Of a stretch of 64,000 nt of DNA, positions 18,007 to 34,798 are shown piece after piece. The DNA is from Temperatibacter marinus (GTDB taxonomy: Bacteria > Pseudomonadota > Alphaproteobacteria > Sphingomonadales > Kordiimonadaceae). A program made the translations under genes and the position numbers. Numbering within the stretch: position 1 is the first letter of the stretch; every line of letters begins with the position of its first letter. Below the pieces are notes generated by a model. It was given only the letters and a program-made list of their open reading frames with translations. It did not search any database and was not told where the DNA came from. The stretch lies in contig NZ_CP123872.1 in NCBI RefSeq assembly GCF_031598375.1, positions 930,001 to 994,000 on the forward strand, read 5' to 3'.

Positions 18007-18033
18007 CCTTTTTTCATGCATAACTAACCATAT

Positions 18034-18067
18034 GAAGGGTCAGTGATTTTCACTGGCCTTTTTTTAT
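18034..18067 (+). terminator. Intrinsic terminator after the sugar carrier
   Basis: GAAGGGTCAGTG pairs with CACTGGCCTT around ATTTT (one G-T pair), and a T-run follows. Confidence 0.8.
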
Positions 18068-18165
18068 TAATCACCTGGTTGCGAGAAAATAAAAACCCTG
18101 TAAAAAATTTCATTGGGCTGAAGTGTTTTTAATATTGACTTTCATTATCATGAGTGTAAATGGTA

Positions 18166-18182
18166 TTGCGAATTATTTGCAA
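18166..18182. promoter_or_regulatory. Fur-like palindrome before the siderophore receptor
   Basis: TTGCGAATTATTTGCAA is a 17-bp inverted repeat (seven of eight pairs match around a central T), ending 14 bases before the receptor start. Its AAT-x-ATT centre resembles alphaproteobacterial Fur boxes. Iron control is inferred from the palindrome and the gene it precedes. Confidence 0.55.
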
Positions 18183-18196
18183 CAAGGATTATCGTA

Positions 18197-20308
18197 ATGC
18201 AAGCCCTCCCTAAAATTATTCTTACTTCTCTCTTAAGCACATCAATTTTATCAAGTTCTGTTTGCGCTCATGAAACATCAACAGAAGAGAAGATTGAAGA
18301 AATTGAGGTTACAGGAAAACAAGTTTCAATTGATAAAATGAATGCGGTTAAAACCCCAACACCTCTGGTGGATATCCCTCAGAGTTTATCAATTATCGAC
18401 AGTCGCCAAATCGCAGATCAAGCCTTCTCCAATTTTGGAGACATTCTTCGATACACCCCAGGTCTTTCTATCAGTCAGGGAGAAGGGCACCGTGATGCCA
18501 TTATCATTCGTGGGATACAAACGACCGCTGATTTTTTCCTGGATGGTTTTAGAGACGATGTACAATATTATCGTCCGCTCTATAACCTAGAGCAAATTGA
18601 AGTCCTTCGCGGTTCAAACGCTTTACTTTTTGGTCGCGGCGGCGGGGGCGGCATTATTAACCGTGTGACAAAGAAGGCTAACCTTGAAACGGATATCATA
18701 GGGCTGAATGCAAGCCTGGATAGCTTTGGCGCTTACGCACTGACATTCGATTACAATACTGAAATCAATGATAATGCGGCTTTCCGCCTTAACGCTTTTT
18801 ACGAAGATATGAATAATCATAGAGATTTTTTTGATGGCGAACGCTTTGCTATTAACCCGAAGTTTTTGTTCAAACCTTCTGAAGAAACCGATATTCACCT
18901 AAGCTATGAATATATTGATGATGACCGCACTGTAGATCGGGGTGTACCATCTCAAAATGTTGACAATGGTCCTGACGTGCCTCTTAAAGGGTATCAGGAA
19001 ACATTCTTCGGGTCTCCTGAAGAGAATTTTACGACGTTACAAGCCCACATCTTAAGAGCACGGGTTGATCATGAATTCTCTGAAGTCTTGCGCGGCAATA
19101 TCGGCGTTCAATATGCGGACTATGATAAATGGTACCAAAATCTATATTCAAGTGAAGAAGTCGTGGTTACAAACGGCGCTTTCTCAGAAGTTGAATTAGA
19201 CGGCTATAGTGATGCCACAGACCGCGAAAACACCCTTGTTCAAGCTAACCTAATTGGTGAACCTGAATTTGCTGGATTTAAACATACTTTTCTTCTAGGC
19301 CTCGAATTTGGATCACAAAAAACATCAAACTCACGCCGTGATAATGTCTTTGCTGCGAATGGTGACGATCAATTGGTAATTCCTTTCTCAGATCCTTTGG
19401 TTATTCCTGATTTTTCATACGTGAGCACATCCCGCAATCGTTCTTCTGACGTTTCATTCCTGTCGGTCTATTTCCAAGATCAAATCGATGTAACAGATTG
19501 GTTCAAAGTCATCGGGGGTCTCCGTTTCGATCGGTTTGATATTGATGTCACTGATGTCATTGTGAACAGCAGTTTCTCTCGCACAGATGAAGAAGTAACC
19601 CCGCGCTTTGGTGCGATCGTGAAGCCAATGGAAAATTTGTCAGCTTATTATAGCTACAGCGAAACTTTCTTACCCCGTTCCGGAGATCAATTCTTAACCC
19701 TCAACCTGGATAGTGAGAGCACGCGTCCACAATCATTCAAAAACTCAGAGCTTGGTCTAAAATGGGATATGAATGATCGCTTTAGTCTTACGGCTGCTTT
19801 GTTTGATCTTGACCGAGAAAGTTACACATCTGTAGATCCAGATGATGCTTCTCAGCTTATAATTATCGAAGGGTCTGTAACTCAGGGCTTTGAAATTCAA
19901 GCAACAGGCTATCTCTCTGATAAATGGTATATCTCTGTTGGGTACAGCTATATTGACGGTAAAGTTGCGCGTGTCGATGACAGTGGTAATTCAGGTAATA
20001 AAACGCGTCAGACCCCAGAAAATATGCTCTCTATTTGGAATCGTGTTACTCTTTCAGATGCCTTCAGCATCGGCTTCGGCGCCACCTACCAGGATAGCTA
20101 TTTTGTTCGTGAAGACAATAGTGTCGAAGTCCCGAGTTACTTCCGGGTGGACGCCGCTGCTTACTACACACTGAATGAGACAACACGCCTGCAGTTGAAT
20201 GTAGAAAACCTCTTTGACGAAGATTATTATCCAGACGCTCACAGCAATGATAATATCTCTACTGGCAAGCCTTTGAATGTCAAACTCGGCATCCAACTTT
20301 CTTTCTAA
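18197..20308 (+). CDS. TonB-dependent siderophore receptor
   Basis: A 703-residue outer-membrane receptor of the ferric-siderophore class. It has a signal peptide (about 1-24, ending VCAHE), a TonB box in EEIEVTGKQ, a plug with DIPQSLSIID, ILRYTPGLSISQGEG, DAIIIRGIQTTADFFLDGFRDD and EVLRGSNALLFGRGGGGG, and a barrel ending GIQLSF. The plug pattern and length match Fiu/FhuA-like catecholate or hydroxamate receptors rather than the sugar receptors nearby. AAGGATT precedes the ATG, and a Fur-like palindrome sits immediately upstream, so iron starvation probably induces it. No siderophore biosynthesis or ABC transporter genes lie alongside, which suggests uptake of siderophores made by other organisms. 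Confidence 0.92.
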   Translation: MQALPKIILTSLLSTSILSSSVCAHETSTEEKIEEIEVTGKQVSIDKMNAVKTPTPLVDIPQSLSIIDSRQIADQAFSNFGDILRYTPGLSISQGEGHRDAIIIRGIQTTADFFLDGFRDDVQYYRPLYNLEQIEVLRGSNALLFGRGGGGGIINRVTKKANLETDIIGLNASLDSFGAYALTFDYNTEINDNAAFRLNAFYEDMNNHRDFFDGERFAINPKFLFKPSEETDIHLSYEYIDDDRTVDRGVPSQNVDNGPDVPLKGYQETFFGSPEENFTTLQAHILRARVDHEFSEVLRGNIGVQYADYDKWYQNLYSSEEVVVTNGAFSEVELDGYSDATDRENTLVQANLIGEPEFAGFKHTFLLGLEFGSQKTSNSRRDNVFAANGDDQLVIPFSDPLVIPDFSYVSTSRNRSSDVSFLSVYFQDQIDVTDWFKVIGGLRFDRFDIDVTDVIVNSSFSRTDEEVTPRFGAIVKPMENLSAYYSYSETFLPRSGDQFLTLNLDSESTRPQSFKNSELGLKWDMNDRFSLTAALFDLDRESYTSVDPDDASQLIIIEGSVTQGFEIQATGYLSDKWYISVGYSYIDGKVARVDDSGNSGNKTRQTPENMLSIWNRVTLSDAFSIGFGATYQDSYFVREDNSVEVPSYFRVDAAAYYTLNETTRLQLNVENLFDEDYYPDAHSNDNISTGKPLNVKLGIQLSF

Positions 20309-21155: not shown

Positions 21156-21824
21156 ATGAGCGTCTTTATCTATCTTGTTCTAATAATTTTGACGGCCGTA
21201 AATTTCCCTTCCCTTGCCGAAGAAAGAGAGTCTTCCTGTTATCTGGCTAGAAAATTCACAGAAGATAAAAGTATACTCTCACGTTTTCAGAAACTATATA
21301 AAAGCAAAGGTATGTGCATTAAGTTTTTGGATATGTCATATCCAAAAGCAACCTCCATGTTTAAGTACGGAAATTTAGATATCGATTTTGCTAGAGTTGC
21401 TCATTATGGCACAGAAGAAAACATTCCTGTCGTTAAAATAAATCCGGCATGGATTACCAACGAAGGAATGCTCGTCTGCAGGCAAGGTATTTCTTGTACA
21501 TCCCATACAATTCCTCAATTAACTGTAGGATCGATAAGAAATACACTATGGAGTAAAAAATTTGCTGTGAAGGCAAAAAAAAGTCTAATTGTTAACAATG
21601 CCAAAAGCTTAATAAGGCTTATAGAAAACGAAAGGGTTGATGCCATTTTACTATCAAGCTTTTTTAAGGACAGGTCCTTTGCAAAGCCTAAAATTCCCCA
21701 TACCAGTATAGTCCTACAAAATGCGGATATACATATATGGGTTCATAAGGACTTAAAACAACTCTTTAAAGTCACTAAGCAAATTATTCCCGATATAAAG
21801 CTTACACTCTCTCAGGGCAGCTAA
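21156..21824 (+). CDS. Exported solute-binding-protein-like protein, orphan
   Basis: A 222-residue protein with a signal peptide (1-22, ending SLAEE). The rest resembles short periplasmic substrate-binding domains of the amino-acid type: a segment YGNLDIDFARVAHYG where a bilobed fold would meet, then TVGSIRNTLWSKKFA and NAKSLIRLIENERVDAILLSS, the common pattern of the second lobe. Four Cys (residues about 28, 49, 107, 113) could form disulfides. No ABC permease or sensor kinase lies near, and the gene is AT-rich compared with the core regions, which suggests later acquisition. The ligand is unknown; a binding or sensing role is inference. Confidence 0.7.
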   Translation: MSVFIYLVLIILTAVNFPSLAEERESSCYLARKFTEDKSILSRFQKLYKSKGMCIKFLDMSYPKATSMFKYGNLDIDFARVAHYGTEENIPVVKINPAWITNEGMLVCRQGISCTSHTIPQLTVGSIRNTLWSKKFAVKAKKSLIVNNAKSLIRLIENERVDAILLSSFFKDRSFAKPKIPHTSIVLQNADIHIWVHKDLKQLFKVTKQIIPDIKLTLSQGS

Positions 21825-21963: not shown

Positions 21964-22959
21964 TTAAACGGCTTTCACCACTGTCTGATCAATAGCGCCA
22001 AATATACTATGGCCTTCAGCATTGAACATTTCAATACGAACTGAATCTCCAAACCTCATAAAAGGTGTTTTTGGTTCACCATATGTCAAAGATTCAACCA
22101 TACGCATTTCTGCAATGCAACTATAGCCTAGGCCACCTTCAGAAATCGGAAGACCGGGCGTCCCATCATCAGCTTTATTAGACACTGTGCCCGAACCAAC
22201 AATGGTTCCTGACCCCAAAGGGCGTGTTTTTGCAGCATGCGCAATAAGAGTGGGGAAATCAAAGACCATATTATCCCCTGCATTGGCGCACCCAAACGGC
22301 TTTCCATTGTAAGTGACGATTAGGGGCAAATTTAACTTCTTGCCGTCCCAAGCAGCCCCCAATTCATCCGGCGTCACACAGACTGGGCTAAAAGCGCTTG
22401 ACGGTTTAGATTGGAAAAACCCAAAGCCCTTTGCTAACTCTCCTGGAATTAACCCTCTCAACGAAACATCATTTACAAGCATGATAAGCCGAATTGCTTC
22501 AGCTGCCTCTCTTGGACTAGCTCCCATTGGTACGTCGCTCGTAACTACTGCAACTTCGCCTTCCATATCAATGCCGAAAGCCTCATCTGCAACTAGAATA
22601 GTATCTCTAGGGCCTAGAAAAGAATCTGAACCTCCTTGATACATTAATGGATCATGCCAAAAAGAAGATGGCATCTCAGCATTTCTAGCTTTGCGGACTA
22701 ATTCCACATGATTTACATAAGCCGAACCATCTGCCCATTGAAAGGCTCTTGGCAAGGGAGAATCACACGCTCGTTCGTCAAAAAGGGTGCCTTGGCCCCT
22801 ATTCACATTGCTAGATAGAGCTTCGAGATTTGGAACGATCTTGTCCCAATTATCCAGTGCAATTTGCAAAGTCATATCGGTTGGCAAATAGCGCTTTAAA
22901 TCTCGTGATACTACTACCAAACAACCATCACGATCATGTTTAAGACTTGCTAATTTCAT
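21964..22959 (-). CDS. Fumarylacetoacetate hydrolase (FAH) family protein
   Basis: A 331-residue enzyme of the FAH family, which hydrolyses or isomerises ring-cleavage products in aromatic catabolism. The likely metal ligands are Glu133 and Glu135 (GIDMEGEVAVV) and Asp164 (LVNDVSLRGL). GSGTIVGSGTVSN and MRFGDSVRIEM near the end are typical. Its start overlaps the upstream VOC gene by 4 bases. It is the last gene of the island's minus-strand run, so it probably catalyses the last C-C bond hydrolysis before central metabolism. The substrate (fumarylpyruvate-like or acylpyruvate-like) is not determinable. Confidence 0.9.
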   Translation of the reverse strand: MKLASLKHDRDGCLVVVSRDLKRYLPTDMTLQIALDNWDKIVPNLEALSSNVNRGQGTLFDERACDSPLPRAFQWADGSAYVNHVELVRKARNAEMPSSFWHDPLMYQGGSDSFLGPRDTILVADEAFGIDMEGEVAVVTSDVPMGASPREAAEAIRLIMLVNDVSLRGLIPGELAKGFGFFQSKPSSAFSPVCVTPDELGAAWDGKKLNLPLIVTYNGKPFGCANAGDNMVFDFPTLIAHAAKTRPLGSGTIVGSGTVSNKADDGTPGLPISEGGLGYSCIAEMRMVESLTYGEPKTPFMRFGDSVRIEMFNAEGHSIFGAIDQTVVKAV

Positions 22960-23498
22960 TCAGCCTTTCCTAACTCTCTTTCATGTAACCACGCTGCATG
23001 GCGAGGTGCTTTCTTAGTTCGGGACCATTCAGTAATCATTTCTTCAGCAACTGAATTTAAACGTTCCATATCTCCTTTCCTTGCACAATTCGCTACAAGT
23101 TCCAAACGATGGCCATTGGGATCTAAGAAATATATTGATTTGAATATACCGTGATCCGTAGGCCCTAAAACTTCAACGCCAAAGCATTCCATTCTTTTCT
23201 TTGCCTCTAATAGAGCGTGCTCATCTGTAACTTCGAATGCAATATGCTGTACCCATTCTGGTGTATTTTTGTCACGTCCCATTGCTGGCTTTGTTGGCAA
23301 TTCAAAGAAAGCCAGAATATTTCCCATACCTGCATCCAAAAAAACATGCATGTATGGCTCTGGCTGTTTTGTTGAAGGCACGCAGTCTTCAGCAATAGCG
23401 AGGACAAGGTCCATTTTTAATACCTTCTTATACCAATCAACGGTTTCTTTGGCCTCACGACACCGATAGGCTACATGGTGAATTTTTTGAATATCCAT
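22956..23498 (-). CDS. VOC-family (glyoxalase/extradiol dioxygenase) protein
   Basis: A 180-residue vicinal-oxygen-chelate protein. Candidate metal ligands follow the family pattern: His8 (KIHHVAY), His85 (WVQHIAFEV) and Glu133 (NGHRLELVA). It sits between the DUF2783 gene and the FAH-family gene and overlaps the latter by 4 bases. A role as ring-cleaving dioxygenase or as an isomerase of the cleavage product would complete the path from hydroxylase to FAH hydrolase, since no other ring-cleavage enzyme is visible. The single domain of about 140 residues plus a helical tail is shorter than classic two-domain extradiol enzymes, so the exact reaction is open. Confidence 0.87.
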   Translation of the reverse strand: MDIQKIHHVAYRCREAKETVDWYKKVLKMDLVLAIAEDCVPSTKQPEPYMHVFLDAGMGNILAFFELPTKPAMGRDKNTPEWVQHIAFEVTDEHALLEAKKRMECFGVEVLGPTDHGIFKSIYFLDPNGHRLELVANCARKGDMERLNSVAEEMITEWSRTKKAPRHAAWLHERELGKAE

Positions 23499-23499
23499 G

Positions 23500-23718
23500 T
23501 TAAACTCCTTCGTGATGCTCTATGGTATTAGATCTAGCAATTTCTGAAGCTTGGGCTATGACATCGAAGTCGGCAATATGATTGGCAAGTATCAAGATTA
23601 GCTTTGCGTTTGCTGTTAAACTTTGATTTGCAGTTAGCCCCTTGTGCATATCGATGATAACTTCGTATACATCGTCAGGAACTGGAATATTGTTTTCCAG
23701 TATTAAGTTAGTTGACAT
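23500..23718 (-). CDS. DUF2783-type small protein
   Basis: A 72-residue protein starting MSTNLILENNIPVPDD. An upstream in-frame ATG would overlap the hydroxylase gene by about 95 bases; the start at 23718 overlaps by only 11 and is preferred. The sequence HKGLTANQSLTANAKLILILANHI matches my recollection of the DUF2783 family, which occurs next to FAD-dependent aromatic hydroxylases. Its function is unknown. Here it lies directly between hydroxylase and VOC gene (1-base gap to the latter), so a role with the hydroxylase is likely. Confidence 0.75.
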   Translation of the reverse strand: MSTNLILENNIPVPDDVYEVIIDMHKGLTANQSLTANAKLILILANHIADFDVIAQASEIARSNTIEHHEGV

Positions 23719-25387
23719 TTCGGCCCACCTTTTTTGCAAGTGCGCGATCACGTGCTGCAAATAGGTCAGACGCTGTAGCTTTTTTCCATCTCCCTGCAAC
23801 ATATTGGTCGGGCCGAAATAAATAAGCAGTACCTATTTGAGCATCTAAACGCTTCGCTAAAAGTCCTTTACAGTCATTAATCACTTTAAAATCAGGATCC
23901 ACTTCAAAATCACTAACTAAAAAAACTTCAGACGGAATTTCATTTTCACAAAATTCTTTGAGCTGAGAACGGTACTTAGAAGATAATTTATTTCCATCAC
24001 AAAACAGAATGACCTTAAATGCCGATCCCACTTGATCAATAAACCACCCTTCAACCGTTCCAAGTGAAATGGGTGCATCAATCGAGTTGGCCCCTGGCGC
24101 CACGCCGCCAGCCCAATTTTCACGATCAAGCGTATTTAATCTTGAGTTATGATAAGCTACTGGTAATGAAAGCCTGCCAGAATTAACAAACCCTCTAGCA
24201 AATTCATACTTATGAGATAATTCGAGTACCGCATCCCTGAAAGTCTTAGATATGGTACTTTTGGGCGTTATAAAATCTGTAGATCGTGTTGAGTTAAGAA
24301 TGTTAACTTTTGCAGCATAAGAACGTTCTTCATCATAGCTCTCTATCAAAGGTATGTCCGCAAGGCCTCTTAATACCAAATCCATCTTCCAGCCAATATT
24401 ATCTGTATCTTGAAATCCAGTATTAGCGCCGCGTGCACCAAATGGAGAAACAAGGTGTGCTGAATCACCAGCAAAAATTACGCGATCTACAACCATATTT
24501 TTCACTTGGCGACAATTAAAAGTGTAAACAGAAACCCATTCATACTCGAACTCAATATCGTCACCAAACATGGCTTTTATATATGGAGTAACATTCTCAT
24601 GTCTTGCGATTTCTTCTCGATCAATATCCCAGCCTACTTGCAAATCAACTCTCCAAACATCATCAGGCTGTTTGTGTAGCAAAGCCGATTTCCCAGGATT
24701 AAAAGAAGGGTCAAACCAAAAATGTCTTTCTACAGGGCGTTCCTGTTTGAATTTTAAGTCGGCAATCAAAAAATTATCCTGAAAAGTTTCGCCTTCAAAT
24801 CCAACGGCTAACTTTTCGCGCACTAAGCTCTTAGAACCATCGCAAGCGATTACCCAGTCAGCCTCGATCTCATAACCTCCTTCAAGGGTCAGCACCTGTG
24901 CTGTAACACCCTTCGCAGAATTGATGAGGTCAGCCACCTCATTGCCCCAACGAATTTCAACATTTTTAAGCTTGACCAACTCAGCAATACAAAATTCTTC
25001 ATTATAATATTGTTGAATATTGATCATGCCTGGTAATTTTTGATCTTTCAGCGGCAGCAAGTCAAAACTATAAACAGGGACAGGGTTATCTTTAAAAAAA
25101 ACACGTCCAATATTCCAACTTAGTCCCTTATCTAGCATAGGCTGCGCATAACCCAATCTGTCCATAATTTCCAAAGATCTCTTCGCAAAGCATATGGCCC
25201 TAGAACCATCGGACACCTGTGTTGATCTATCCAATAAAGTAACATTGTGCCCCCTCAAACCTAACTCTAATGCAGTAGCCAGACCGATTGGACCTGCCCC
25301 AACAATTAAGACCGTGGCTTTCTCCAACTTTCCTGTTTGAACAGCAGCTGGGATAACGGGAGCATACTTAGATGAAATATGCGGCAT
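23708..25387 (-). CDS. FAD-dependent aromatic hydroxylase (PheA/MhpA-like)
   Basis: A 559-residue class A flavoprotein monooxygenase that would add an OH group to a phenolic ring using NAD(P)H and O2. The three family motifs are present: GxGxxG in VGAGPIGLATALEL (29-42), the DG motif VIACDGSKSLVR (179-190) and the GD motif FAGDSAHLVSPFGARG (305-320). The C-terminal thioredoxin-like extension fits the MhpA/phenol hydroxylase group. It lies 31 bases after the MBL-fold gene and overlaps the DUF2783 gene. With VOC and FAH genes next in line, it should be the first ring-activating step. The substrate is unknown; the penicillin acylase-like gene upstream hints at an arylacetate or aryl amine. Confidence 0.9.
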   Translation of the reverse strand: MPHISSKYAPVIPAAVQTGKLEKATVLIVGAGPIGLATALELGLRGHNVTLLDRSTQVSDGSRAICFAKRSLEIMDRLGYAQPMLDKGLSWNIGRVFFKDNPVPVYSFDLLPLKDQKLPGMINIQQYYNEEFCIAELVKLKNVEIRWGNEVADLINSAKGVTAQVLTLEGGYEIEADWVIACDGSKSLVREKLAVGFEGETFQDNFLIADLKFKQERPVERHFWFDPSFNPGKSALLHKQPDDVWRVDLQVGWDIDREEIARHENVTPYIKAMFGDDIEFEYEWVSVYTFNCRQVKNMVVDRVIFAGDSAHLVSPFGARGANTGFQDTDNIGWKMDLVLRGLADIPLIESYDEERSYAAKVNILNSTRSTDFITPKSTISKTFRDAVLELSHKYEFARGFVNSGRLSLPVAYHNSRLNTLDRENWAGGVAPGANSIDAPISLGTVEGWFIDQVGSAFKVILFCDGNKLSSKYRSQLKEFCENEIPSEVFLVSDFEVDPDFKVINDCKGLLAKRLDAQIGTAYLFRPDQYVAGRWKKATASDLFAARDRALAKKVGRNVN

Positions 25388-25418
25388 ACAAACCCTCGCT
25401 TAGTGGTATAAATTTCAA

Positions 25419-26378
25419 TTAATCCTGTAACTTTTTCCAAACTTCCTGATCACGATTATCTGTCCAGATACGGGGCCAATCAATTCCATCAAACTCATCC
25501 CATAGCCTTTGAACATTAAATGGAAGGCAATGCTCAAAAATAGGCCATCTTCCAAATTTTGGTTCTAAAGCTTTATGAGTTACCTCAAACGCCTCTTTCA
25601 AACTACCACCTCTGTTGTGAACCTTGCCTACATGATTGATCATATCTGTTAAAAATCCCCGAGATTGTTCTATAGCCCCCTCTACTTCACAACGGCCTTG
25701 TGCAACAACACCCCTGCCTCCAATCATTATTTCTGCGCCATATAATTTTATTCTATCGAGAGTGCTAGAAGACCAATCCATATGAAAGGCATCCCCTGTA
25801 TAAAGAGCTGCCTGAGCTTCTACGAGATCCCCAGCAAACATAATCTTTTGCTTAGGAAGCCACGCTATGATATCCCCTGCTGTATGCCCCCTTCCACAAT
25901 GTTCAAGAATTAACACACCTCGATCACCGCCCAACTCAATAGAAAGCCGATCGGAGAACGTAATATCAGGATGCGTAAGTCCTGGAATTCCTTCAGGTTC
26001 TCGAAACAGTCTAGGCATTCTACCAAATTCGCTATCCCAGTCCTGCTGGCCGCGTTCATCGATTAATATTTTTGTATTCTCATGAGCAATGATAGATTCA
26101 GCGTTAAAGGCCGATGCCCCTAACACTCGCACTGCATGATAGTGGGATAACACCAGATACTTGACAGGCTTATTTGTATGAATTCTTAATTTTTTGAGCC
26201 AATCGTTCGCAGCTTTAGGAGTAGCACGAGCCTCAAAGGCGACAATGAAATCTTCCCCTTCTATCGCCCCAACATTTGGATCTCCCTCAGCAGTTAAAGC
26301 ATAGACTCCATCAGCCAACACTTTTAAAGATTCAACTTTTTCTCCATGATCTGCTGAAGAAGCGAACGGTTTAGACAT
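25419..26378 (-). CDS. Metallo-beta-lactamase-fold protein with altered metal motif
   Basis: A 319-residue MBL-fold protein. The canonical HxHxDH is HYHAVR here (residues 79-84): both first histidines are kept, but Asp and the following His are replaced by Val83 and Arg84. Later ligand positions look intact (His in HCGRGHTAGD, His in IFEHCLPFNVQRL). I believe similar HYHAVR sequences occur in MBL proteins of other aromatic-degradation clusters, so this may be a subfamily trait. It is the first gene after the operator at 26437-26456 and leads the run MBL-hydroxylase-DUF2783-VOC-FAH. It has no signal peptide, so it is cytoplasmic. A lactonase or thioesterase-like step is possible. Confidence 0.8.
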   Translation of the reverse strand: MSKPFASSADHGEKVESLKVLADGVYALTAEGDPNVGAIEGEDFIVAFEARATPKAANDWLKKLRIHTNKPVKYLVLSHYHAVRVLGASAFNAESIIAHENTKILIDERGQQDWDSEFGRMPRLFREPEGIPGLTHPDITFSDRLSIELGGDRGVLILEHCGRGHTAGDIIAWLPKQKIMFAGDLVEAQAALYTGDAFHMDWSSSTLDRIKLYGAEIMIGGRGVVAQGRCEVEGAIEQSRGFLTDMINHVGKVHNRGGSLKEAFEVTHKALEPKFGRWPIFEHCLPFNVQRLWDEFDGIDWPRIWTDNRDQEVWKKLQD

Positions 26379-26436
26379 GTTTTTCTCCTTAATTTTTATT
26401 CCTATAGCTATTATATAAAATTAAAGGGGCCAGATA

Positions 26437-26456
26437 TGTCCTCTGGATATAGGACT
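26437..26456. promoter_or_regulatory. Island operator, copy 1 (TGTCCT-N8-AGGACT)
   Basis: TGTCCT at 26437-26442 and AGGACT at 26451-26456 form an inverted repeat with 8 bases between. Its centre is 68 bases upstream of the MBL-fold gene. The same repeat with identical spacing lies before two other units of the island (31772-31791, 34399-34418). Confidence 0.6.
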
Positions 26457-26473
26457 AATGACAATAAGCATGA

Positions 26474-27316
26474 CTAATGAGCGCGCGCTACTTTCAGGCA
26501 CATATTAAAAAGCTCATTTTGTGATGAAATATTCAGCTTTGCATAAGATCGCTTGCGATATGTGGCCACACTAGTTGGAGCGATGCCGAGGTCGAAACCA
26601 ATACCAATTGTTGTATATCCCAGCAAAATTCTCTCACAAACTTGACGTTCTCGCATTGTAAGGGAGTCAAATGGTGGTGAATCTTTAGAGATAACATTAT
26701 GGACAATACTTTTTCTGACTATATTTTCACTGCCGTTGTCAGGAAAAGCGTTTCCATTAGCCCTAGCTATATCATAATGAACAGCGATCAGTGCAGTCGC
26801 AAGTGGCATCAAGTCCTTGAGCACAGACCATTCTACATTAGAATATTTAACCGAATCTACCATTCTATAAAAATTACAATAGACACGCCCATCTTCAACT
26901 TTTCCAACCGAGGCTGCTTTATCAATCAATCCTCGACGATCAAAGAAATGATTTTGATAAGCTGGATCATAATCGACTGAAATCACCTTTTTATCCAATT
27001 CAATATACTCGTCAGAATCGGAATTCTGAATCTCTTTAAAGTTTGGATCGTCCTTATAGAATTTATCCACATAGTCTCTGGCGAGTTCTTCCGCTTCTCT
27101 GTCTGGCATTCTACTATGCGTAAACAAATGGCCAGCATTACCTCTATCCGAATAGGTAAAGACGACACAGTGATCTACAGGAACAACTTCGGAAAGAAAA
27201 TTCATCAAGCACTTTTCAAAAGCTTCTCCACCCATCGAACGGACGACATCTGCAATCGAACAAACATACTCTCCAATTTCAGGGTTTTTATGAAACAAGC
27301 TAATGAGCTCTGACAT
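26474..27316 (-). CDS. LuxR-family transcriptional regulator
   Basis: A 280-residue regulator with a C-terminal LuxR-type helix-turn-helix (about 214-275): LTMRERQVCERILLGYTTIGIGFDLG, then IAPTSVATYRKRSYAKLNISSQNELF. The N-terminal 200 residues do not show a response-regulator receiver. They could be a ligand-binding domain, but I cannot match them to the acyl-homoserine-lactone type. No synthase gene lies nearby. It sits in the middle of the minus-strand catabolic run, 10 bases after the symporter gene, and is the only DNA-binding protein there. It is thus the natural candidate for binding the 6-8-6 inverted repeats found at three promoters of the island. Confidence 0.9.
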   Translation of the reverse strand: MSELISLFHKNPEIGEYVCSIADVVRSMGGEAFEKCLMNFLSEVVPVDHCVVFTYSDRGNAGHLFTHSRMPDREAEELARDYVDKFYKDDPNFKEIQNSDSDEYIELDKKVISVDYDPAYQNHFFDRRGLIDKAASVGKVEDGRVYCNFYRMVDSVKYSNVEWSVLKDLMPLATALIAVHYDIARANGNAFPDNGSENIVRKSIVHNVISKDSPPFDSLTMRERQVCERILLGYTTIGIGFDLGIAPTSVATYRKRSYAKLNISSQNELFNMCLKVARAH

Positions 27317-27326
27317 TTTTTACTCC

Positions 27327-29012
27327 CTAGTGTTCACCTGCATTCAAGACTTCCGAGCCGATTTCTGACTTACGTACTTGAGCTGGAAAAGCCCTCCTTT
27401 CTTCTCGAGCCCGATCACTTTTATCCCATTTAGAGACTAGAATAATAGTCAAGAAAGTGAATGGCATCGCCACAACTGTGGGGTAAGTATAAGGGAAAGG
27501 GGCCCTATCAAATCCAAACACCGAAACGAATATCGCAGGACTTAAAACGATTAATACCGCACAAACCGACAACCCAATATACCCACCCCATATGACTCCG
27601 CGTGTGGTCAATCCTTGCCAATAGAGAGAGAGAATAATGATAGGGCAGTTAACACTAGCTGCAATAGCTAGAGCAATGGCAGCTGTTACGGCAACATTCT
27701 GTCCTTCAAAAGCGAAGCCAAAAATTACGGCCAATATTCCTAAAATCACGGTGGCATATTTTGTGACTTTCACTTCTTTTTCAGGATGATCATCTACTTT
27801 CTTAAATAGTTGGCCATAGAGGTCATGTGAAAGAGTTGCCGCACCCGAAAGAGCTAATCCGGCGACAACGGCTAGAATTGTTGCGAAACTAACGGCAGCC
27901 ATAAAACCGAACATAAAATCACCACCAAGTAATCTGGAAACATGAATGGCAACCATATTAGCCCCTCCTGTTAGAAGGCCGGCCTCATCGAGAATCGTGT
28001 CATTTCCAAACAAAACAAAAGAAGCCCCGATCCCAATGACCAAAATAACACCATAAAAATAGCCCATTATTGACGTCGCGTAAAAAACAGATTTTCGAGC
28101 ATCAACAGCATCTTTCACCGTAAAAAAGCGCATCAGGATATGTGGCAATCCCATTATCCCGAATGTCATAGTCAAAGAGACTGTTATAATGGCAAAAGGA
28201 TCACTGGCGAACCATCCACCTGGGATAAATAAAGACGAGCCAAGATCACTTTTCTCAATGGCATTTTGAACAAGCCTTTCAAAAGAGAACCCGACATGAA
28301 CAAGGATCGCATAGGCAAGATATGTCCCGCCGATTAAAAGCAAGCTCGCTTTAATGATTTGGACCCAGGTTGTGGCAACCATACCGCCAAATGCTACATA
28401 GACAATCATCAATATTCCAACAATGATGACTGCCCATTTATAGTCTAGCCCGAATAAAATTTGAATGAGAGTACCGGCTCCAACCATCTGTGCAATTAAA
28501 TAAAAAAGTACAATACTAAGGGACACGCACGATGCCATAATTCGGATTGGACGAGCTTCAAACCTAGATGCCAGTACATCGATGAATGTGAAGCTTCCTA
28601 GATTGCGAAATCGTTCAGCAACAACCATTAAAATTATTGGCCACCCTATCATTATACCAACAGAAAGAATGAAAGCATCAATTCCGCGAAAATAAAGAGC
28701 GCCCGTTATACCCAAAAAAGTAGCTGCTGACATAAAATCACCAGCAATCGCCATTCCATTTTGCCAAGGTTTTAAGCCGCCTCCAGCAACAAAAAACTCT
28801 TTCCGGGAACGGACCTGATTAGCGGCCCACCATGTAATGCCGAGTGTAGACAAAACAAAAATGAGAAAAGTCCCTATTGCTACGGGATTAATAGCCTGTT
28901 TTTCGCCACTTGATATTATCGCATCGGCCGAAAGACCTTTACAAAAGAGAGGAGTAAAAACCATAAATCCGATTAGCATTGAAAGATAGTTAATCATGTT
29001 TTTTTTCTTCAC
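27327..29012 (-). CDS. Sodium:solute symporter, ActP type
   Basis: A 561-residue inner-membrane carrier of the SSS family, closest in layout to the cation/acetate symporter ActP. It has about 13 membrane helices and family stretches such as FFVAGGGLKPWQNGMAIAGDFMSAATFLG and GLALSGAATLSHDLYG. The annotated start is a GTG (MKKKNMIN), overlapping the DUF485 gene by 23 bases; an ATG at 28997 (MINYLSML) is the alternative. The charged KKK favours the longer form as a signal or first-helix n-region. SSS members carry short or aryl carboxylates. In this island an aromatic acid released by the acylase is a reasonable substrate, but acetate remains possible. Confidence 0.9.
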   Translation of the reverse strand: MKKKNMINYLSMLIGFMVFTPLFCKGLSADAIISSGEKQAINPVAIGTFLIFVLSTLGITWWAANQVRSRKEFFVAGGGLKPWQNGMAIAGDFMSAATFLGITGALYFRGIDAFILSVGIMIGWPIILMVVAERFRNLGSFTFIDVLASRFEARPIRIMASCVSLSIVLFYLIAQMVGAGTLIQILFGLDYKWAVIIVGILMIVYVAFGGMVATTWVQIIKASLLLIGGTYLAYAILVHVGFSFERLVQNAIEKSDLGSSLFIPGGWFASDPFAIITVSLTMTFGIMGLPHILMRFFTVKDAVDARKSVFYATSIMGYFYGVILVIGIGASFVLFGNDTILDEAGLLTGGANMVAIHVSRLLGGDFMFGFMAAVSFATILAVVAGLALSGAATLSHDLYGQLFKKVDDHPEKEVKVTKYATVILGILAVIFGFAFEGQNVAVTAAIALAIAASVNCPIIILSLYWQGLTTRGVIWGGYIGLSVCAVLIVLSPAIFVSVFGFDRAPFPYTYPTVVAMPFTFLTIILVSKWDKSDRAREERRAFPAQVRKSEIGSEVLNAGEH

Positions 29013-29298
29013 GAATTCGCTTTATTTCAGGGTCAATAGCCCTCTTAGACCACCACGAATAATACCCAGAAATAAAAACTCCCATGAAGATAGAGAACAA
29101 CGACATGACAATGACGAGGTTGACTTCTCCCAAAATTGAGAGTTGAGCAAGATCCTTTCCTGCTGACAGTAAAAAGCCATAAAAGGCATAGACTATGAGT
29201 AAAATTGCACTAAGAGAAAATGACATGACCAACCTTACTCTCACTATTTTCTGGATGTCAGAAGGCTTTTTCTGCCTCGTTGTATAGCCTGCTCTCAT
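28990..29298 (-). CDS. DUF485 membrane protein, partner of the ActP-type symporter
   Basis: A 102-residue DUF485 (YjcH-like) protein with two membrane helices (about 25-48 and 60-82), a basic N-terminus (RAGYTTRQKKPSDIQKI) and a charged tail IKRIREEKKHD. In many bacteria a DUF485 gene directly precedes actP, as here with a 23-base overlap. The protein probably helps assembly or activity of the carrier. A weak TGTCC-containing inverted repeat lies about 100 bases upstream (29394-29412), but it is too degenerate to count with the three better operators. Confidence 0.9.
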   Translation of the reverse strand: MRAGYTTRQKKPSDIQKIVRVRLVMSFSLSAILLIVYAFYGFLLSAGKDLAQLSILGEVNLVIVMSLFSIFMGVFISGYYSWWSKRAIDPEIKRIREEKKHD

Positions 29299-29421
29299 TT
29301 CAGACTTCCTTTCGTTTTGCTACCCTAGGCAATAACATTGCAGGTAACTCTATAGCTGGAGAAACACTCATAAATGCGAATAAAAACCTCAATTGTCCAT
29401 GTATATGGGATATAGTTTAGG

Positions 29422-31683
29422 TCAAAAAGATGCAGACAATGTCGCACCAAACGTTCTCGGCGGACCCCATATACCTATTGCCCCTGGACCTATGATGTAA
29501 GAATGAGCGACATATGCTTTATCAAAAATATTCTTTGCCCAAAGAGCAATCTGGTATCTCTCGTCATTCGACGTCCAAGATACGCGTGCATCGGTTAAAT
29601 TACGTTCGCTAATCACTGGTAAATCACTTTGGTAATCCATTCGCTCCTCATCAATATGAGTGAAGTGAATATTGAAATCTAGGGTGCCCTTATTCTCCAT
29701 TGGAAGTGAATAGTTCAGATCCAAATTGTAAGAGTTTCTTGGAGCCTGTCGTAAATCTTTTCCTGAGACATCAGTGCCGTTAATTATTAAATCATTCCCA
29801 ACAGTATCTAAAAATGCATAATTAGCGTTTACATGGAAATACTCTGTAAGCTGCCAGACCATTTCCACTTCAAAACCTTTAATTTCTGCACTCCCTAGGT
29901 TGGTTGTTGTGAATGTTCCAAATGAAGATTCGGGAACAGGCCCAAATCGCACAACCTGCAAATCTTTATAGTCCATATAAAATCCTGTAACATTCATTCG
30001 AAGCTGATTTGCAAAAAAATCGCCTTTAAAACCAATTTCATAGTTTGTAACAGTTTCAGGTTCTACAATATTTTGCGCCACGGCCTCAACACCTGCTGAT
30101 CCTGCAAAACCACCACTTTTAAAGCCAGTTGCCCACGTTGCGAAAACCATTAAATCATCTGTCGCCTGATATTGAATAGAGGCCATTGGAGAAAAATCAC
30201 TCCATGAACCATCAACTTCAACATTGAAAACCTCTGCAATAATTCCCAAACTACCGCCAACGCTGCCACATAGCTCAAAATTGGGAAACCCAGCTGCGGC
30301 TCTAACAGCCTCATCAAGCCCACAGTTAACTGCCGTTGTAGTATATTCTTTTCTATCATGTGAATATCGACCACCAAAAGAAAGTGTCCAATCTTCAGCG
30401 AATGTCCACTGGGCCTGTCCATAAGCAGCATAGGATGTTGTTTTATTCGCAGTAAGGGAATATTCATTGCCAACAATGACTTGCCCTGTATCGACAGTAT
30501 TTCTTTGAATACTCCACTGTTCAGGGCGATCCGTATTTTCAGTAAAAAAATACAGGCCTGCAATAAACTCCAAAGAATGCCCAAGATTTGATGTCCAGCG
30601 AATCTCTTCTGAAAAAGTCTCAACTTTCTCTTCAATATGATCAATCACATCTGACCCATAAACATCAGCATCCAAATCATAATTTCCCCCAAGGGGTGCT
30701 CCTACCGAAGGCATTGCCCAATCAGTATCAATGCTACGAAATGATGTAATTGTCGTCAAAATTCCGTTTCCAAATTGCACATCACCCTGCAAGCTTAGCC
30801 CTCCCCCTTTACGGTCGGTATACCCCTCAACAGGAGCAGCTGTCGTTTGAGGTTTGTTTGCCCCAAGCGCTTCAGCCGTCCCTACATAATCAAAGTTGCC
30901 ATTCCTAAAGGGGAATCGACCCGTATCTTCACGATGATCTTCCATATAGTCACCAGAAAGAAGCCAGTCACTCCTATCCAATGCCAATCTCAACTGTCCT
31001 CTGAATGAGGTTTGATCTTCATCATTCACATCTTTATTCAAGAGCGTATTACGAACAAATCCATCATGACTTCTGTGATTTACAACCACCTTCCCGAATA
31101 GATTGTCACTCAATGGCCCACTTATTAATCCTTGAGCCCTAAATATATTTTCATTACCATATGTAAGTGCAGATTTTATCACCAACTCATCTGTCGGCTT
31201 TTTACTTACAACATTGATGGCACCCCCGATTGTATTTCGCCCAAACAAAGCACCCTGAGGTCCTTTCAGGACTTCAATTCGCTGCAAATCAAACATGTCA
31301 AAATTAATGCCCGCTCCGCGACCGATATACACACCATCCAAAAACAGTGCGACAGAGTTATCCAAACCAGCGCCATCATCCGAGGAACCAACACCTCGCA
31401 TAGAAAAGGAGGCCTGACCCGGTGAAAATTCCCCATAAGCCAGACCTGGAGTATTCATTGCAATTCCATGTGCGTCAAAAATATCTCGTTTTAGAATCAA
31501 ATCTTCACTCAACACAGAAACTGTGACCGGAACATCCTGAACATTTGCACTTCTATGTTGGGCCGTTACAATGATCTCTTCTAGTGCATGGCCACGATCA
31601 TCATCCTCAGCATAAGCTGAAGAATGACCAACCAATAACGAAATTGTAGAAACAGTTGCGACTAATCCGTACATCCTCTGCAT
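29422..31683 (-). CDS. TonB-dependent receptor of the catabolic island
   Basis: A 753-residue outer-membrane receptor. I place the start at the ATG of 31683 (MQRMYGLVATVS), because AGGAG lies 8 bases before it and a signal peptide follows directly. A longer in-frame form from 31764 lacks both. The TonB box is in LEEIIVTAQHR, the plug contains ANVQDVPVTVSVLSE, NTPGLAYGEFSPGQASFSMRGVG and VLKGPQGALFGRNTIGGAINVVSKKP, and the barrel ends ATLSASF. This plug pattern is common in sphingomonad-type receptors for organic molecules. It lies between acylase and symporter genes with its own copy of the island operator, so the ligand is probably the acylated aromatic compound the island degrades. Confidence 0.92.
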   Translation of the reverse strand: MQRMYGLVATVSTISLLVGHSSAYAEDDDRGHALEEIIVTAQHRSANVQDVPVTVSVLSEDLILKRDIFDAHGIAMNTPGLAYGEFSPGQASFSMRGVGSSDDGAGLDNSVALFLDGVYIGRGAGINFDMFDLQRIEVLKGPQGALFGRNTIGGAINVVSKKPTDELVIKSALTYGNENIFRAQGLISGPLSDNLFGKVVVNHRSHDGFVRNTLLNKDVNDEDQTSFRGQLRLALDRSDWLLSGDYMEDHREDTGRFPFRNGNFDYVGTAEALGANKPQTTAAPVEGYTDRKGGGLSLQGDVQFGNGILTTITSFRSIDTDWAMPSVGAPLGGNYDLDADVYGSDVIDHIEEKVETFSEEIRWTSNLGHSLEFIAGLYFFTENTDRPEQWSIQRNTVDTGQVIVGNEYSLTANKTTSYAAYGQAQWTFAEDWTLSFGGRYSHDRKEYTTTAVNCGLDEAVRAAAGFPNFELCGSVGGSLGIIAEVFNVEVDGSWSDFSPMASIQYQATDDLMVFATWATGFKSGGFAGSAGVEAVAQNIVEPETVTNYEIGFKGDFFANQLRMNVTGFYMDYKDLQVVRFGPVPESSFGTFTTTNLGSAEIKGFEVEMVWQLTEYFHVNANYAFLDTVGNDLIINGTDVSGKDLRQAPRNSYNLDLNYSLPMENKGTLDFNIHFTHIDEERMDYQSDLPVISERNLTDARVSWTSNDERYQIALWAKNIFDKAYVAHSYIIGPGAIGIWGPPRTFGATLSASF

Positions 31684-31771
31684 CACTTTTTCTCCTAACG
31701 CATTTGGTAAATAAAATAACGATATTATAATTGCCATTTCGTCTAGACTAGCGCTCAAGTGCACTAATATC

Positions 31772-31791
31772 TGTCCCCGAAAAGAAGGACA
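31772..31791. promoter_or_regulatory. Island operator, copy 2 (TGTCCC-N8-AGGACA)
   Basis: TGTCCC at 31772-31777 and AGGACA at 31786-31791, spaced by 8 bases, centred 98 bases upstream of the receptor start. Spacing and half-sites equal those of the other two copies. Confidence 0.6.
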
Positions 31792-31831
31792 GGAATAAAT
31801 TTAAATTCTCTTATTCGAGAAAAAAAGCCCT

Positions 31832-34330
31832 TTAATATTTTAACTTTTCAGACCTCACCGCTACAGCTTCCACTTCTTCTTTTGTGAAGGGTAATTGCTT
31901 TTGCTCAAACCTAAGATACATTCCAATTTGATCTCTATAATGCTGGCTAAAACCAGTTGTCTGAGCAACAAAACCACTTTGGCCTGGAGGGGTAACATCA
32001 GTGCCTATGATCCCCTCATTATGCATCACAGATAGGTTGTTTTCGGATCCGCGATTCATCGTAATTGGGATACTAATAGACAATTGAGGAAGCGTTTGAG
32101 GGATTCCATAAAAATTAACAGAGCGAAATACTTGGCGTGCAACAGGCAATCTCCATTTCTTGAGGTCACCGCCATATCGGTTACTTAATTCTAAGCCTAT
32201 TTGTCGGAGAGTTGATAAAATTACATGAGATTTTTTCTGACCATTAAAAAAATCAAAACGCTGAGGAACACCTGATTTCTCTTCCAACAAAGCGTTATAT
32301 AAAATCTTCACACCGGGCGTGATATTTGTGGAACTTGTTCTTGGCTCAATTGCATACCCAGGAGACTGATAAAGATAAAAGAATTCTGACCCGATATCAT
32401 CCCGAAGGACAGTTTCTAACATCTTCGATAACCAAGCATTTAGTATCACTGGTCCTGCATGATCATAATAAAAATTATGATCTTTATCTTTCCAAGTCTG
32501 ATCCCACGAGCGTAAGTGTGCGACTAAAATCGCAGCCATATCTGAGTCTGGTAATTCAGAAACTGCATTTTCTAGAAAGGGTAAAAAATAACGTATATTT
32601 AGATCTTTAAATGAGGCCGTGCGGTTTAATTCAATCACGTCTTGATATGACATTTTTTTCTTACTGTCTAAAACTTCAAACAGTTCAGTTGCACGGTCAG
32701 CAGATGTCCAAACAACATACCAAGGATCCCCGTTTGGCCAAAAGTTGGCAGGCTTGTTGTTCCAATTTACAATATACCCTATTTTTGGGTTATAAACTTG
32801 GGGTAATTTATGAGGAGATATAACACCTTGCCATTCCATATTGCCAGTACCAGGAGTAGGTAAACGTGAGTCTTGGCCTTCCGCACGGTTAGGAAAATGA
32901 CCACTATAAAAATATCCAATATTCCCTGCTTTATCAATGTAATACCAGTTGACAGAGACAGCGTTACGGGCTGCAGCGGTTTTCCATTGGTCATAAGTGG
33001 TTGCTTCCATTTGATCCATAAAAGCAAAAAGACTCTGCACTTCTTTCCCGTCCCATGTACGTTTTCTTGAAAATGCAATTTTGGAATGATTATCTTGACG
33101 AACAATAGGGCCATGAACAGTCCTTGAAATATTAAACTGTATACTTTCCAGCCCTTTAACATGAATTATTTCTTGATGTTTTTCCATAGGGCGAAATCTT
33201 CCCTTGTAAAAATATTCATCAAGATTATTGGGATTCAATTCTTCAATGAAATAATCAACCGTATCTCCCATTCCCGCCGTACTGCCCCAAGCAATATGTT
33301 TATTGTGAGCGAAAAAAATCGGGGGGATCGCAAAATATGAATTTCCGACCACATCCAGTCCTGCCCCATGTAAGCCTACACTATAAACATAAGAAGGATT
33401 GATCCAACCAAACTGAGGGCCATTTAGTAAATAACCATTTGAATCCTCTGACTTACTTTGCCCAATCAACCAAATATTACTGGCTGACGCATGGCCAGCA
33501 GAGCCACTTATTCCAGAAGCAGCTAATTCAGATTTATAATAACTTACCGCCTCTTTAAGGTTTACATTCTTGTAGCTACCATCACTATTAAACACCATTC
33601 TCGGTGCGACCAATAAATCACGATTGATCTTCGGCAGACTAGAGTATTCATTTTCTTTGATGAGCGAGGCTTTCTTGGCCACCTTCGTTGGGACTGTCGT
33701 TGGGGCCTTTGGATCGTTAATCCAGTTTAACTGATTAAAAATTACGAGAGCTTTCTCTTCACCATGTTGAGCTTGCAAGGCGTTTAACAGAGCAAGATTC
33801 TCCAGCTCTGTTGAAAAGTCAGAGAACCGATCAGCAACCACAGCGGTGAATACCATTGCCACATCGACAGCGTCCCACATTCTCGGTAAAAAATTATATA
33901 CTGCATACTCTTTTGGTAACAGTTTATCGGGGTCAGTCTCAATGAATTTTATCCAACGATTCATACCATCTGCATAGCCTTCTAAGACAGCCCGCTGATT
34001 AGGCAATAACGCTTCGACCTGTTCTCTCACAGACGTAATAGACAATTCTACCCTCATCGCTTTATCAAAGGAGATATATTTATCACCTAGCACTTCTGAG
34101 ACCGTGCCTTTTGCTGAGCGCCTGATCATTTCCATCTGGAACAACCTATCTTGTGCAACAGAATAACCATAGCCTAGAAACAAACCGTATTTGTCGTCAG
34201 CATATATGTGTGGAACGCCCTTTTGATCTCTTTTTATTATTACTTCTTTTTGTGAAAAATCTGCATGTGATACAGCTGACAGTATTAGTAAAAAAAGTAT
34301 CAATGAAACCTGTTTTGATATGCCCGTCAT
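31832..34330 (-). CDS. Penicillin G acylase-like N-terminal-nucleophile hydrolase
   Basis: An 832-residue precursor of a periplasmic amidase. It has a signal peptide (about 1-23, ending SHADF), an alpha-chain region, a spacer and the beta chain beginning at Ser284 in HASASNIWLIG. The family cleaves itself before this Ser, which then serves as nucleophile. The following NGPQFGW, VGLHGAGLDVVGN, WGSTAGMGD and the late NRGSENN (oxyanion Asn) and PPGQSGFVA are very close to classical penicillin G acylases, more than to the AHL acylases PvdQ/QuiP. Such enzymes release phenylacetate-like acids from amides. It heads the minus-strand island and has its own operator at 34399. The natural substrate is unknown; an arylacetyl amide or aryl-acyl homoserine lactone are options. 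Confidence 0.93.
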   Translation of the reverse strand: MTGISKQVSLILFLLILSAVSHADFSQKEVIIKRDQKGVPHIYADDKYGLFLGYGYSVAQDRLFQMEMIRRSAKGTVSEVLGDKYISFDKAMRVELSITSVREQVEALLPNQRAVLEGYADGMNRWIKFIETDPDKLLPKEYAVYNFLPRMWDAVDVAMVFTAVVADRFSDFSTELENLALLNALQAQHGEEKALVIFNQLNWINDPKAPTTVPTKVAKKASLIKENEYSSLPKINRDLLVAPRMVFNSDGSYKNVNLKEAVSYYKSELAASGISGSAGHASASNIWLIGQSKSEDSNGYLLNGPQFGWINPSYVYSVGLHGAGLDVVGNSYFAIPPIFFAHNKHIAWGSTAGMGDTVDYFIEELNPNNLDEYFYKGRFRPMEKHQEIIHVKGLESIQFNISRTVHGPIVRQDNHSKIAFSRKRTWDGKEVQSLFAFMDQMEATTYDQWKTAAARNAVSVNWYYIDKAGNIGYFYSGHFPNRAEGQDSRLPTPGTGNMEWQGVISPHKLPQVYNPKIGYIVNWNNKPANFWPNGDPWYVVWTSADRATELFEVLDSKKKMSYQDVIELNRTASFKDLNIRYFLPFLENAVSELPDSDMAAILVAHLRSWDQTWKDKDHNFYYDHAGPVILNAWLSKMLETVLRDDIGSEFFYLYQSPGYAIEPRTSSTNITPGVKILYNALLEEKSGVPQRFDFFNGQKKSHVILSTLRQIGLELSNRYGGDLKKWRLPVARQVFRSVNFYGIPQTLPQLSISIPITMNRGSENNLSVMHNEGIIGTDVTPPGQSGFVAQTTGFSQHYRDQIGMYLRFEQKQLPFTKEEVEAVAVRSEKLKY

Positions 34331-34713: not shown

Positions 34714-34798
34714 GAACTATATTTTAATGGGAACTATATTTTAATGGGAACTATATTTTAATGGGAACTATATTTTAATGGGAACTATATTTTGATGG
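34714..34798. repeat. Tandem array, 5 x 17 bp
   Basis: Five head-to-tail copies of GAACTATATTTTAATGG at 34714, 34731, 34748, 34765 and 34782. The first four are identical and the fifth has TTTTGATGG. There are no spacers, so it is not a CRISPR array. The unit shares TTAATGGGAAC with the reverse complement of the tRNA 5' flank (34951-34961). Confidence 0.92.

Follow-up and report, generated by a model that had tools for sequence, protein, structure and literature searches.

Alkaptonuria results from loss of homogentisate ring cleavage, the step that also lies behind bacterial pyomelanin. In the available excerpt of PMC3053370, homogentisate is formed by a 3-hydroxyphenylacetate 6-hydroxylase made up of a flavoprotein, MhaA (566 amino acids), and a coupling protein, MhaB (60 amino acids). 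For Acinetobacter baumannii, the excerpt of PMC7646211 describes a genome without hmgA in which a gene for a type I ring-cleaving dioxygenase lies between hmgC and hmgR, and takes this dioxygenase for a distant HmgA relative devoid of activity. Here, we report a cluster of ten genes in Temperatibacter marinus that, with moderate confidence, we take to encode both the peripheral and the central part of a homogentisate pathway acting on a hydroxyphenylacetyl compound, fed by an acylase of the penicillin G acylase (PGA) type. The window analysed is a stretch of 64,000 nucleotides (G000:C1:930001-994000) from a genome of 3.18 Mb in one contig, and the cluster fills positions 21964-34330 with ten open reading frames on the minus strand, all of which match Pfam above cut-off. 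The frame listing and these matches bear out the placement, in a preliminary description of this DNA, of all its named genes on that strand. A tenth gene absent from that list encodes a protein of the metallo-beta-lactamase (MBL) fold (25419-26378, minus strand).

Ring cleavage in the cluster probably falls to a homogentisate 1,2-dioxygenase that is not related to HmgA. It is a protein of 180 amino acids from the VOC family (22956-23498, minus strand), and the assignment draws on likeness to a known structure, co-occurrence and invariant residues. The protein is 65% identical over 179 columns to PDB entry 9u42, a crystal structure released on 2025-07-23 and titled as homogentisate 1,2-dioxygenase of Acinetobacter complexed with a Zn ion; the likeness is one of sequence, and the enzyme name is taken from the title. 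The printed sequence of 9u42 is 95% identical to the product of a VOC gene of A. baumannii, annotated only as a VOC family protein and found in the order fahA-maiA-VOC-IclR-hppD (L251, 6045-10735). From this gene order, it would be the same gene as the dioxygenase gene of PMC7646211. Residues H8, H85, H116, Y123 and E133 are invariant in two alignments (A1, 33 rows; A2, 52 rows), and all of these except H8 align with catechol 2,3-dioxygenase 1mpy. H8, H85 and E133 would form the 2-His-1-Glu metal site of type I ring-cleaving dioxygenases, and H116 and Y123 appear to match their second-shell His and Tyr. NCBIfam yielded no model that names the protein: the highest score of the window copy was 38 bits (cut-off 171), and a second copy in the genome gave nothing at E<=1e-20. 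Likewise, no description of a VOC-type homogentisate dioxygenase was found among the open-licence literature matches listed.

The distribution of this gene relative to HmgA points in the same direction. The genome of T. marinus has no HmgA match at E<=1e-10 and no PF20510 (HgmA_N) match, and it encodes one 4-hydroxyphenylpyruvate dioxygenase (HPPD) above cut-off and two VOC copies. The second copy belongs to an operon-like run of HPPD, VOC, fumarylacetoacetate hydrolase (FAH) and maleylacetoacetate isomerase (MaiA) genes at 2.42 Mb (L123, 8045-11417), in which HPPD scores 396 bits (cut-off 277) and MaiA 259 (cut-off 171). This run is best read, from its gene content, as a tyrosine route without hmgA in which the VOC gene stands in the hmgA place. 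In relatives, too, the VOC gene lies between that of HPPD and those of FAH and MaiA. Among 59 relatives, T. marinus included, 38 have the VOC protein at E<1e-70 and 16 have HmgA at 1e-10; both are present in one (G041) and neither in six, with the weak VOC matches of G053 and G054 counted as absent. HPPD is found in 89 of the genomes sampled from the class, 71 with HmgA and 18 without, and a strong VOC match occurs in 15 of the 18 versus 3 of the 71 (Fisher p 1.6e-11, with no correction for shared ancestry). Where positions were compared, in 18 class genomes, VOC and HPPD genes were at most 300 bp apart in 7. In addition, 80 named loci were kept from 591 matching a VOC profile; these hold HPPD in 43 cases, a short FAH in 30, MaiA in 27, the hydroxylase described below in 18 and HmgA in 4. 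The order hppD-VOC-fahA is found in Ideonella. A separate observation is a divergent HmgA of 376 amino acids beside FAH and MaiA genes (L142, 8384-9514), which scores 92.6 bits on TIGR01015 (cut-off 510.75). Six of the 76 hydroxylase loci described below hold a homologue of this type, which is perhaps a further kind of homogentisate dioxygenase.

Within the cluster, the VOC gene is directly followed by one for a short-type FAH with an FAA_hydro_N_2 domain (21964-22959, minus strand; PF01557, PF18288), the best structure match of which is 3lzk (E 1e-145). On its other side lie the genes of a flavin adenine dinucleotide (FAD)-dependent aromatic hydroxylase of 559 amino acids (23708-25387, minus strand; PF01494, 197 bits) and a DUF2783 protein (PF10932). 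The open frame of the latter spans 23500-23802, and the start, corrected by eye, is probably 23718, which leaves a protein of about 72 amino acids (23500-23718, minus strand). The hydroxylase falls in the PRK08132 subfamily (702 bits, cut-off 416), for which the NCBIfam name is only FAD-dependent oxidoreductase. Because of the MhaAB-like sizes, the conserved neighbours and the link to HmgA or VOC genes, the pair is taken to be homogentisate-forming; homology and neighbourhood suggest that it most likely makes homogentisate from 3-hydroxyphenylacetate, the large protein being MhaA-like and the small one an MhaB-like coupling protein.

At E<=1e-90, the hydroxylase is present in 42 of the 289 genomes sampled from the class, at 47 places, T. 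marinus included, and neighbourhoods were retrieved for 40 of these places. At 19 of the 47 (13 HmgA, 6 VOC; own genome included), an HmgA or VOC gene is no more than 8 kb away, a count made with the best 23 of 31 VOC places and an HmgA list lacking two fragments; the HPPD column of the same table covers five places only. HmgA or a strong VOC match is found somewhere in 40 of the 42 genomes with the hydroxylase versus 66 of the 247 without it, genomes being counted as independent, which is not the case, and the HmgA lists behind these counts agree (90 genomes). Homologues of named marker proteins, and of these only, were sought in 140 loci, 76 of which hold the hydroxylase; since 80 of the 140 were chosen by VOC, the VOC counts there are biased. 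The 76 include 57 with a DUF2783 homologue and 48 with an MBL homologue. In plasmid relatives from Sphingobium, Paracoccus and Roseomonas the MBL-FAD-DUF2783 block stands beside hmgA, fahA and maiA, and a small Sphingobium gene annotated as hypothetical matches the DUF2783 protein of the window. In the MBL protein itself (PF00753), HYHAVR stands where the zinc motif HxHxDH would be usual, and this holds for all 14 sequences of the alignment. HmgA-linked and VOC-linked rows were intermixed in a quick tree of the hydroxylases, as expected if the ring-cleavage partner has been swapped repeatedly.

The cluster is headed by a gene (31832-34330, minus strand) whose product is, by its sequence, a PGA-type Ntn hydrolase with Ser284 as nucleophile. 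It scores 458 bits on Penicil_amidase (PF01804; curated cut-off 21.3) and among PDB entries it matches penicillin G acylases best, with 7reo at E 7e-207 and the beta chain of 1cp9 at 1e-147. Both PGA chains are covered, the inter-chain stretch being unmatched in the best alignments, and the motifs SNIW (with Ser284), NGPQFGW and NRGSENN of the preliminary description are all present, with Ser284 at the position of residue 1 of PGA beta chains. S284, Q306, A352, N524 and R546 occupy the catalytic positions in the 7reo alignment, which is ungapped there; we take these positions to be Ser1, Gln23, Ala69, Asn241 and Arg263 of the beta chain. The phenylacetyl pocket presumably comprises alpha-142, alpha-146, 24, 57, 67, 154 and 177, and four of these seven are kept (Phe-alpha-146, Phe24, Phe57, Ser67), while beta-Trp154 is changed to Phe, beta-Ile177 to Val and alpha-Met142 to Val, the alpha-chain positions having been mapped via equal-length stretches of the PGA match. 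The N-terminus looks, by eye, like a clear signal peptide. The genome encodes three Penicil_amidase proteins in total. An identity as acyl homoserine lactone acylase was considered and rejected, as the score on the NCBIfam PvdQ model, 83.9 bits, falls far below the cut-off of 950. The enzyme would most likely cut phenylacetyl or hydroxyphenylacetyl amides. A literature search combining penicillin acylase, hydroxyphenylacetate and physiological role gave no match.

Between the acylase and the hydroxylase block lie the genes that would serve uptake and regulation, all on the minus strand: a TonB-dependent receptor (29422-31683, start corrected by eye from 31764; PF00593, PF07715), a DUF485 partner (28990-29298; PF04341) of an ActP-like sodium:solute symporter (27327-29012; PF00474, 319.5 bits), and a LuxR-type transcription regulator (26474-27316; PF00196). 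The symporter reaches 699.5 bits on the ActP subfamily model, under its cut-off of 750, and is probably an arylacetate carrier. Relatives of the receptor are found at 62-63% identity in G028 and 60% in G051, the symporter is 70% identical in G005, and regulators 64-68% identical accompany the hydroxylase in loci of G005, G025 and G023; beyond its helix-turn-helix, no Pfam match to a ligand domain was found in the regulator at E<=0.1. In G051 the receptor relative adjoins that of the symporter (58%), about 18 kb from the hydroxylase of that genome, an arrangement suggestive of a single compound handled by both.

Taken together, these genes allow a pathway to be proposed. The substrate, a (hydroxy)phenylacetic acid amide, would enter the periplasm through the TonB-dependent receptor; there the acylase, going by its enzyme class, would cleave it, and the symporter with its DUF485 partner would import the released acid. 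The hydroxylase and DUF2783 protein would then convert 3-hydroxyphenylacetate or an isomer to homogentisate, as homology and neighbourhood suggest, and the VOC protein would open the ring as homogentisate 1,2-dioxygenase, a step for which the support is strong. The maleylacetoacetate isomerase of the second operon (G000:C1, 2.42 Mb) and the FAH of the cluster would complete the conversion to fumarate and acetoacetate. As a guess, the LuxR regulator probably responds to the acid. Uptake, periplasmic deacylation, import and ring degradation of an N-acylated aromatic had been proposed in the preliminary description. Of that layout, the grouping of the genes stands, and a homogentisate route accepts hydroxyphenylacetate, the type of acid that a PGA would release; the acylase as a fixed member of the cluster is not supported.

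Related clusters appear to reach the same core through other front ends. In G028 the order is hydroxylase, DUF2783, receptor and an amidase of the AS family, which is unrelated to the acylase of the window, scores just above the cut-off of the indoleacetamide hydrolase model (539.9 bits against 532) and has a lipoprotein-like N-terminal signal. An amidase is also found beside the hydroxylase block of Paracoccus, with no evident signal. In G051 (L072, 717-7654) the block lies next to genes for a quinohemoprotein amine dehydrogenase alpha subunit, an aldehyde dehydrogenase and a TonB-dependent receptor, and in Sphingobium a GMC oxidoreductase, an aldehyde dehydrogenase and a receptor are encoded nearby; these neighbours suggest other routes into the same hydroxyphenylacetate. 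As a tentative generalisation, to which we give slightly less than an even chance, a transferable homogentisate-forming core (MBL, FAD hydroxylase, DUF2783) would be combined with interchangeable front ends that make hydroxyphenylacetate, namely the PGA-type acylase here, the exported-looking amidase in G028, the quinohemoprotein amine dehydrogenase in G051 and alcohol or aldehyde oxidation in Sphingobium, and with either HmgA or the unrelated VOC-fold dioxygenase. Pseudomonadota would then widely possess the latter as a second homogentisate dioxygenase, and the scavenging of hydroxyphenylacetyl amides would be a natural job of PGA-type enzymes.

Several observations weigh against parts of this interpretation. 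The structure model of the VOC protein, with a predicted local distance difference test score of 41.8 from the single sequence and 86.5 with alignment A2, placed 9u42 first among PDB entries in Foldseek (E 6e-22), but superposes on it poorly (TM-score 0.42, root-mean-square deviation 17.2). In VIA-align, 9u42 is not among the 50 rows shown; methylmalonyl-CoA epimerases rank first (Z 12.8), which for such a model reflects the common VOC fold, and 2,6-dichlorohydroquinone dioxygenase 4huz is included (Z 10.5). The VOC gene is not always a simple replacement of HmgA, because three of the 71 class genomes with HPPD and HmgA have it too and four more have a weak match, because three of the 18 with HPPD and no HmgA lack it (G044, G279, G291), and because both genes stand together beside the hydroxylase in 4 of 80 loci (L225, L229, L230, L231). 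Upstream of ring cleavage, the likeness to MhaA is one of sizes and layout, and the hydroxyl group of the substrate may be at another position. Because PaaA/PaaC-type genes are present in the genome as well, the degradation of phenylacetate itself might proceed without the cluster.

The same tally continues with the acylase, which was found linked to the hydroxylase in T. marinus only. The other nine genes occur in one run without it in G005, where the receptor is only 36% identical, and at E<=1e-50 an acylase match is confined to 1 of the 289 class genomes, that of T. marinus itself. None of the 76 other hydroxylase loci holds an acylase homologue, and none of the 24 pattern-matching stretches from named genomes encodes a relative. 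The acylase stop lies about 150 bp from the probable receptor start, and with this gap a single transcript spanning both genes cannot be assumed. The preliminary description had suggested judging the link by whether acylase and hydroxylase stay together in relatives. In the sole relative available, G031 (41% identity by search, 39% by pairwise alignment), the link fails by this measure: the two are separated, with no hydroxylase in the 19.9-kb acylase stretch and its best match on a different contig. All this would be expected if the homogentisate cluster is real and takes free hydroxyphenylacetate or a different precursor, the acylase being a chance neighbour, separately transcribed, for another amide such as acyl homoserine lactones or a beta-lactam-like compound. 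We regard that explanation as possible, if on balance doubtful, since the acylase fits both PGA chains with its catalytic and four of seven pocket positions kept and fits the PvdQ model far worse, and since the unrelated amidase of G028 points to amides. Indeed, it is the position of this exported-looking amidase next to a homologous receptor that keeps an amide substrate under consideration. The analogue is weakened by an internal TAG in the G028 hydroxylase match, in a draft 76% complete, and by a different gene order, amidase and hydroxylase being on opposite sides of the receptor. Homologues of either amidase were found in only 3 of the 76 hydroxylase loci, two of which are the query sources, and with the acylase in none, amide front ends must be uncommon. 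That the acylase feeds the homogentisate route is nevertheless plausible, by enzyme class and by an analogous arrangement rather than by conserved linkage.

A different possibility is that the substrate of the hydroxylase and VOC protein resembles a catechol or a flavonoid, as in the fde (naringenin) and ifc (isoflavone) systems, and that homogentisate is no intermediate. The combination of an FAD enzyme and a glyoxalase first brought flavonoids to mind, and according to the available excerpt of PMC11069340 isoflavone breakdown involves the joint action of an FdeE-like FAD monooxygenase and an FdeC-like putative glyoxalase. A Variovorax cluster, which may itself be fde/ifc-like, encodes a VOC protein 44% identical to that of the window together with an alpha/beta hydrolase, an FAD enzyme and DUF2783. 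The idea was dropped on the plasmid hmgA blocks and the likeness to 9u42, and we now consider it very improbable. The window VOC protein is 65% identical to 9u42 versus 39-48% to four VOC proteins from other contexts, the Variovorax one among them and FdeC not; its gene runs straight into that of FAH; and the window hydroxylase clusters with HmgA-linked ones in the quick tree, apart from Variovorax, whose row is a long branch. A homogentisate pathway fed by the acylase remains our preferred interpretation of the cluster.

The preliminary description speaks of an island; the cluster is part of a GC-poor region, with a GC content of 0.36-0.42 at 18-36 kb versus 0.45-0.46 over the remainder of 12-42 kb. 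This region adjoins a tRNA-Gly gene, of which no exact repeat of at least 12 bases, as might mark the end of a genomic island, was found elsewhere within the window. Between the tRNA-Gly and the acylase gene, a 17-bp tandem repeat in five copies (98% match) occupies 34714-34798, and a T-rich stretch of about 29 bp is seen by eye on both of its flanks (two copies). Past the FAH end of the cluster there is a plus-strand frame of 222 amino acids (21156-21824) with no Pfam match at E<=1e-5, and further out, on the plus strand at 16597-20308, a gene of a sugar-transporter family and another TonB-dependent receptor. Consensus scans for promoters (52 sites versus 41.4, standard deviation 6.4, in shuffles) and terminators (12 versus 11.0) were not used.

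The VOC protein would fill the HmgA gap in 15 of the 18 class genomes that have HPPD and no HmgA, and the context of the cluster suggests a candidate natural role for a PGA-type enzyme. Set against described systems, the locus resembles fde and ifc in combining an FAD monooxygenase with a glyoxalase-type dioxygenase (PMC11069340, excerpt); the alpha/beta hydrolase and cupin genes which that excerpt gives for the ifc hotspot are not among the ten genes here. With the PGA family (7reo, 1cp9, 1ai4, 3k3w and others) the acylase shares the alignment of both chains and the nucleophilic Ser at residue 1 of the beta chain, whereas it has Phe, Val and Val at three presumed pocket positions and sits in a homogentisate cluster. 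The VOC protein and 9u42 of Acinetobacter are of nearly equal length and share the conserved His, Tyr and Glu positions, but the window copy stands with the hydroxylase and not in a tyrosine operon, where relatives of it occupy the place of hmgA. The mhaAB-hmgABC genes of Pseudomonas putida U and Burkholderia xenovorans LB400, as far as the excerpt of PMC3053370 describes them, are alike in having a large FAD hydroxylase with a partner of about 60-70 amino acids and ring-cleavage and FAH genes nearby. Here, VOC replaces HmgA and the maleylacetoacetate isomerase is encoded elsewhere in the genome. At this locus, the mhaAB-like genes are accompanied by those for the PGA-type acylase, TonB receptor, ActP-like carrier, LuxR regulator and MBL-fold protein, any of which may also occur in the named strains. 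The cluster joins a known central pathway to a front end that is new, with a ring-cleavage enzyme that has had little recognition.

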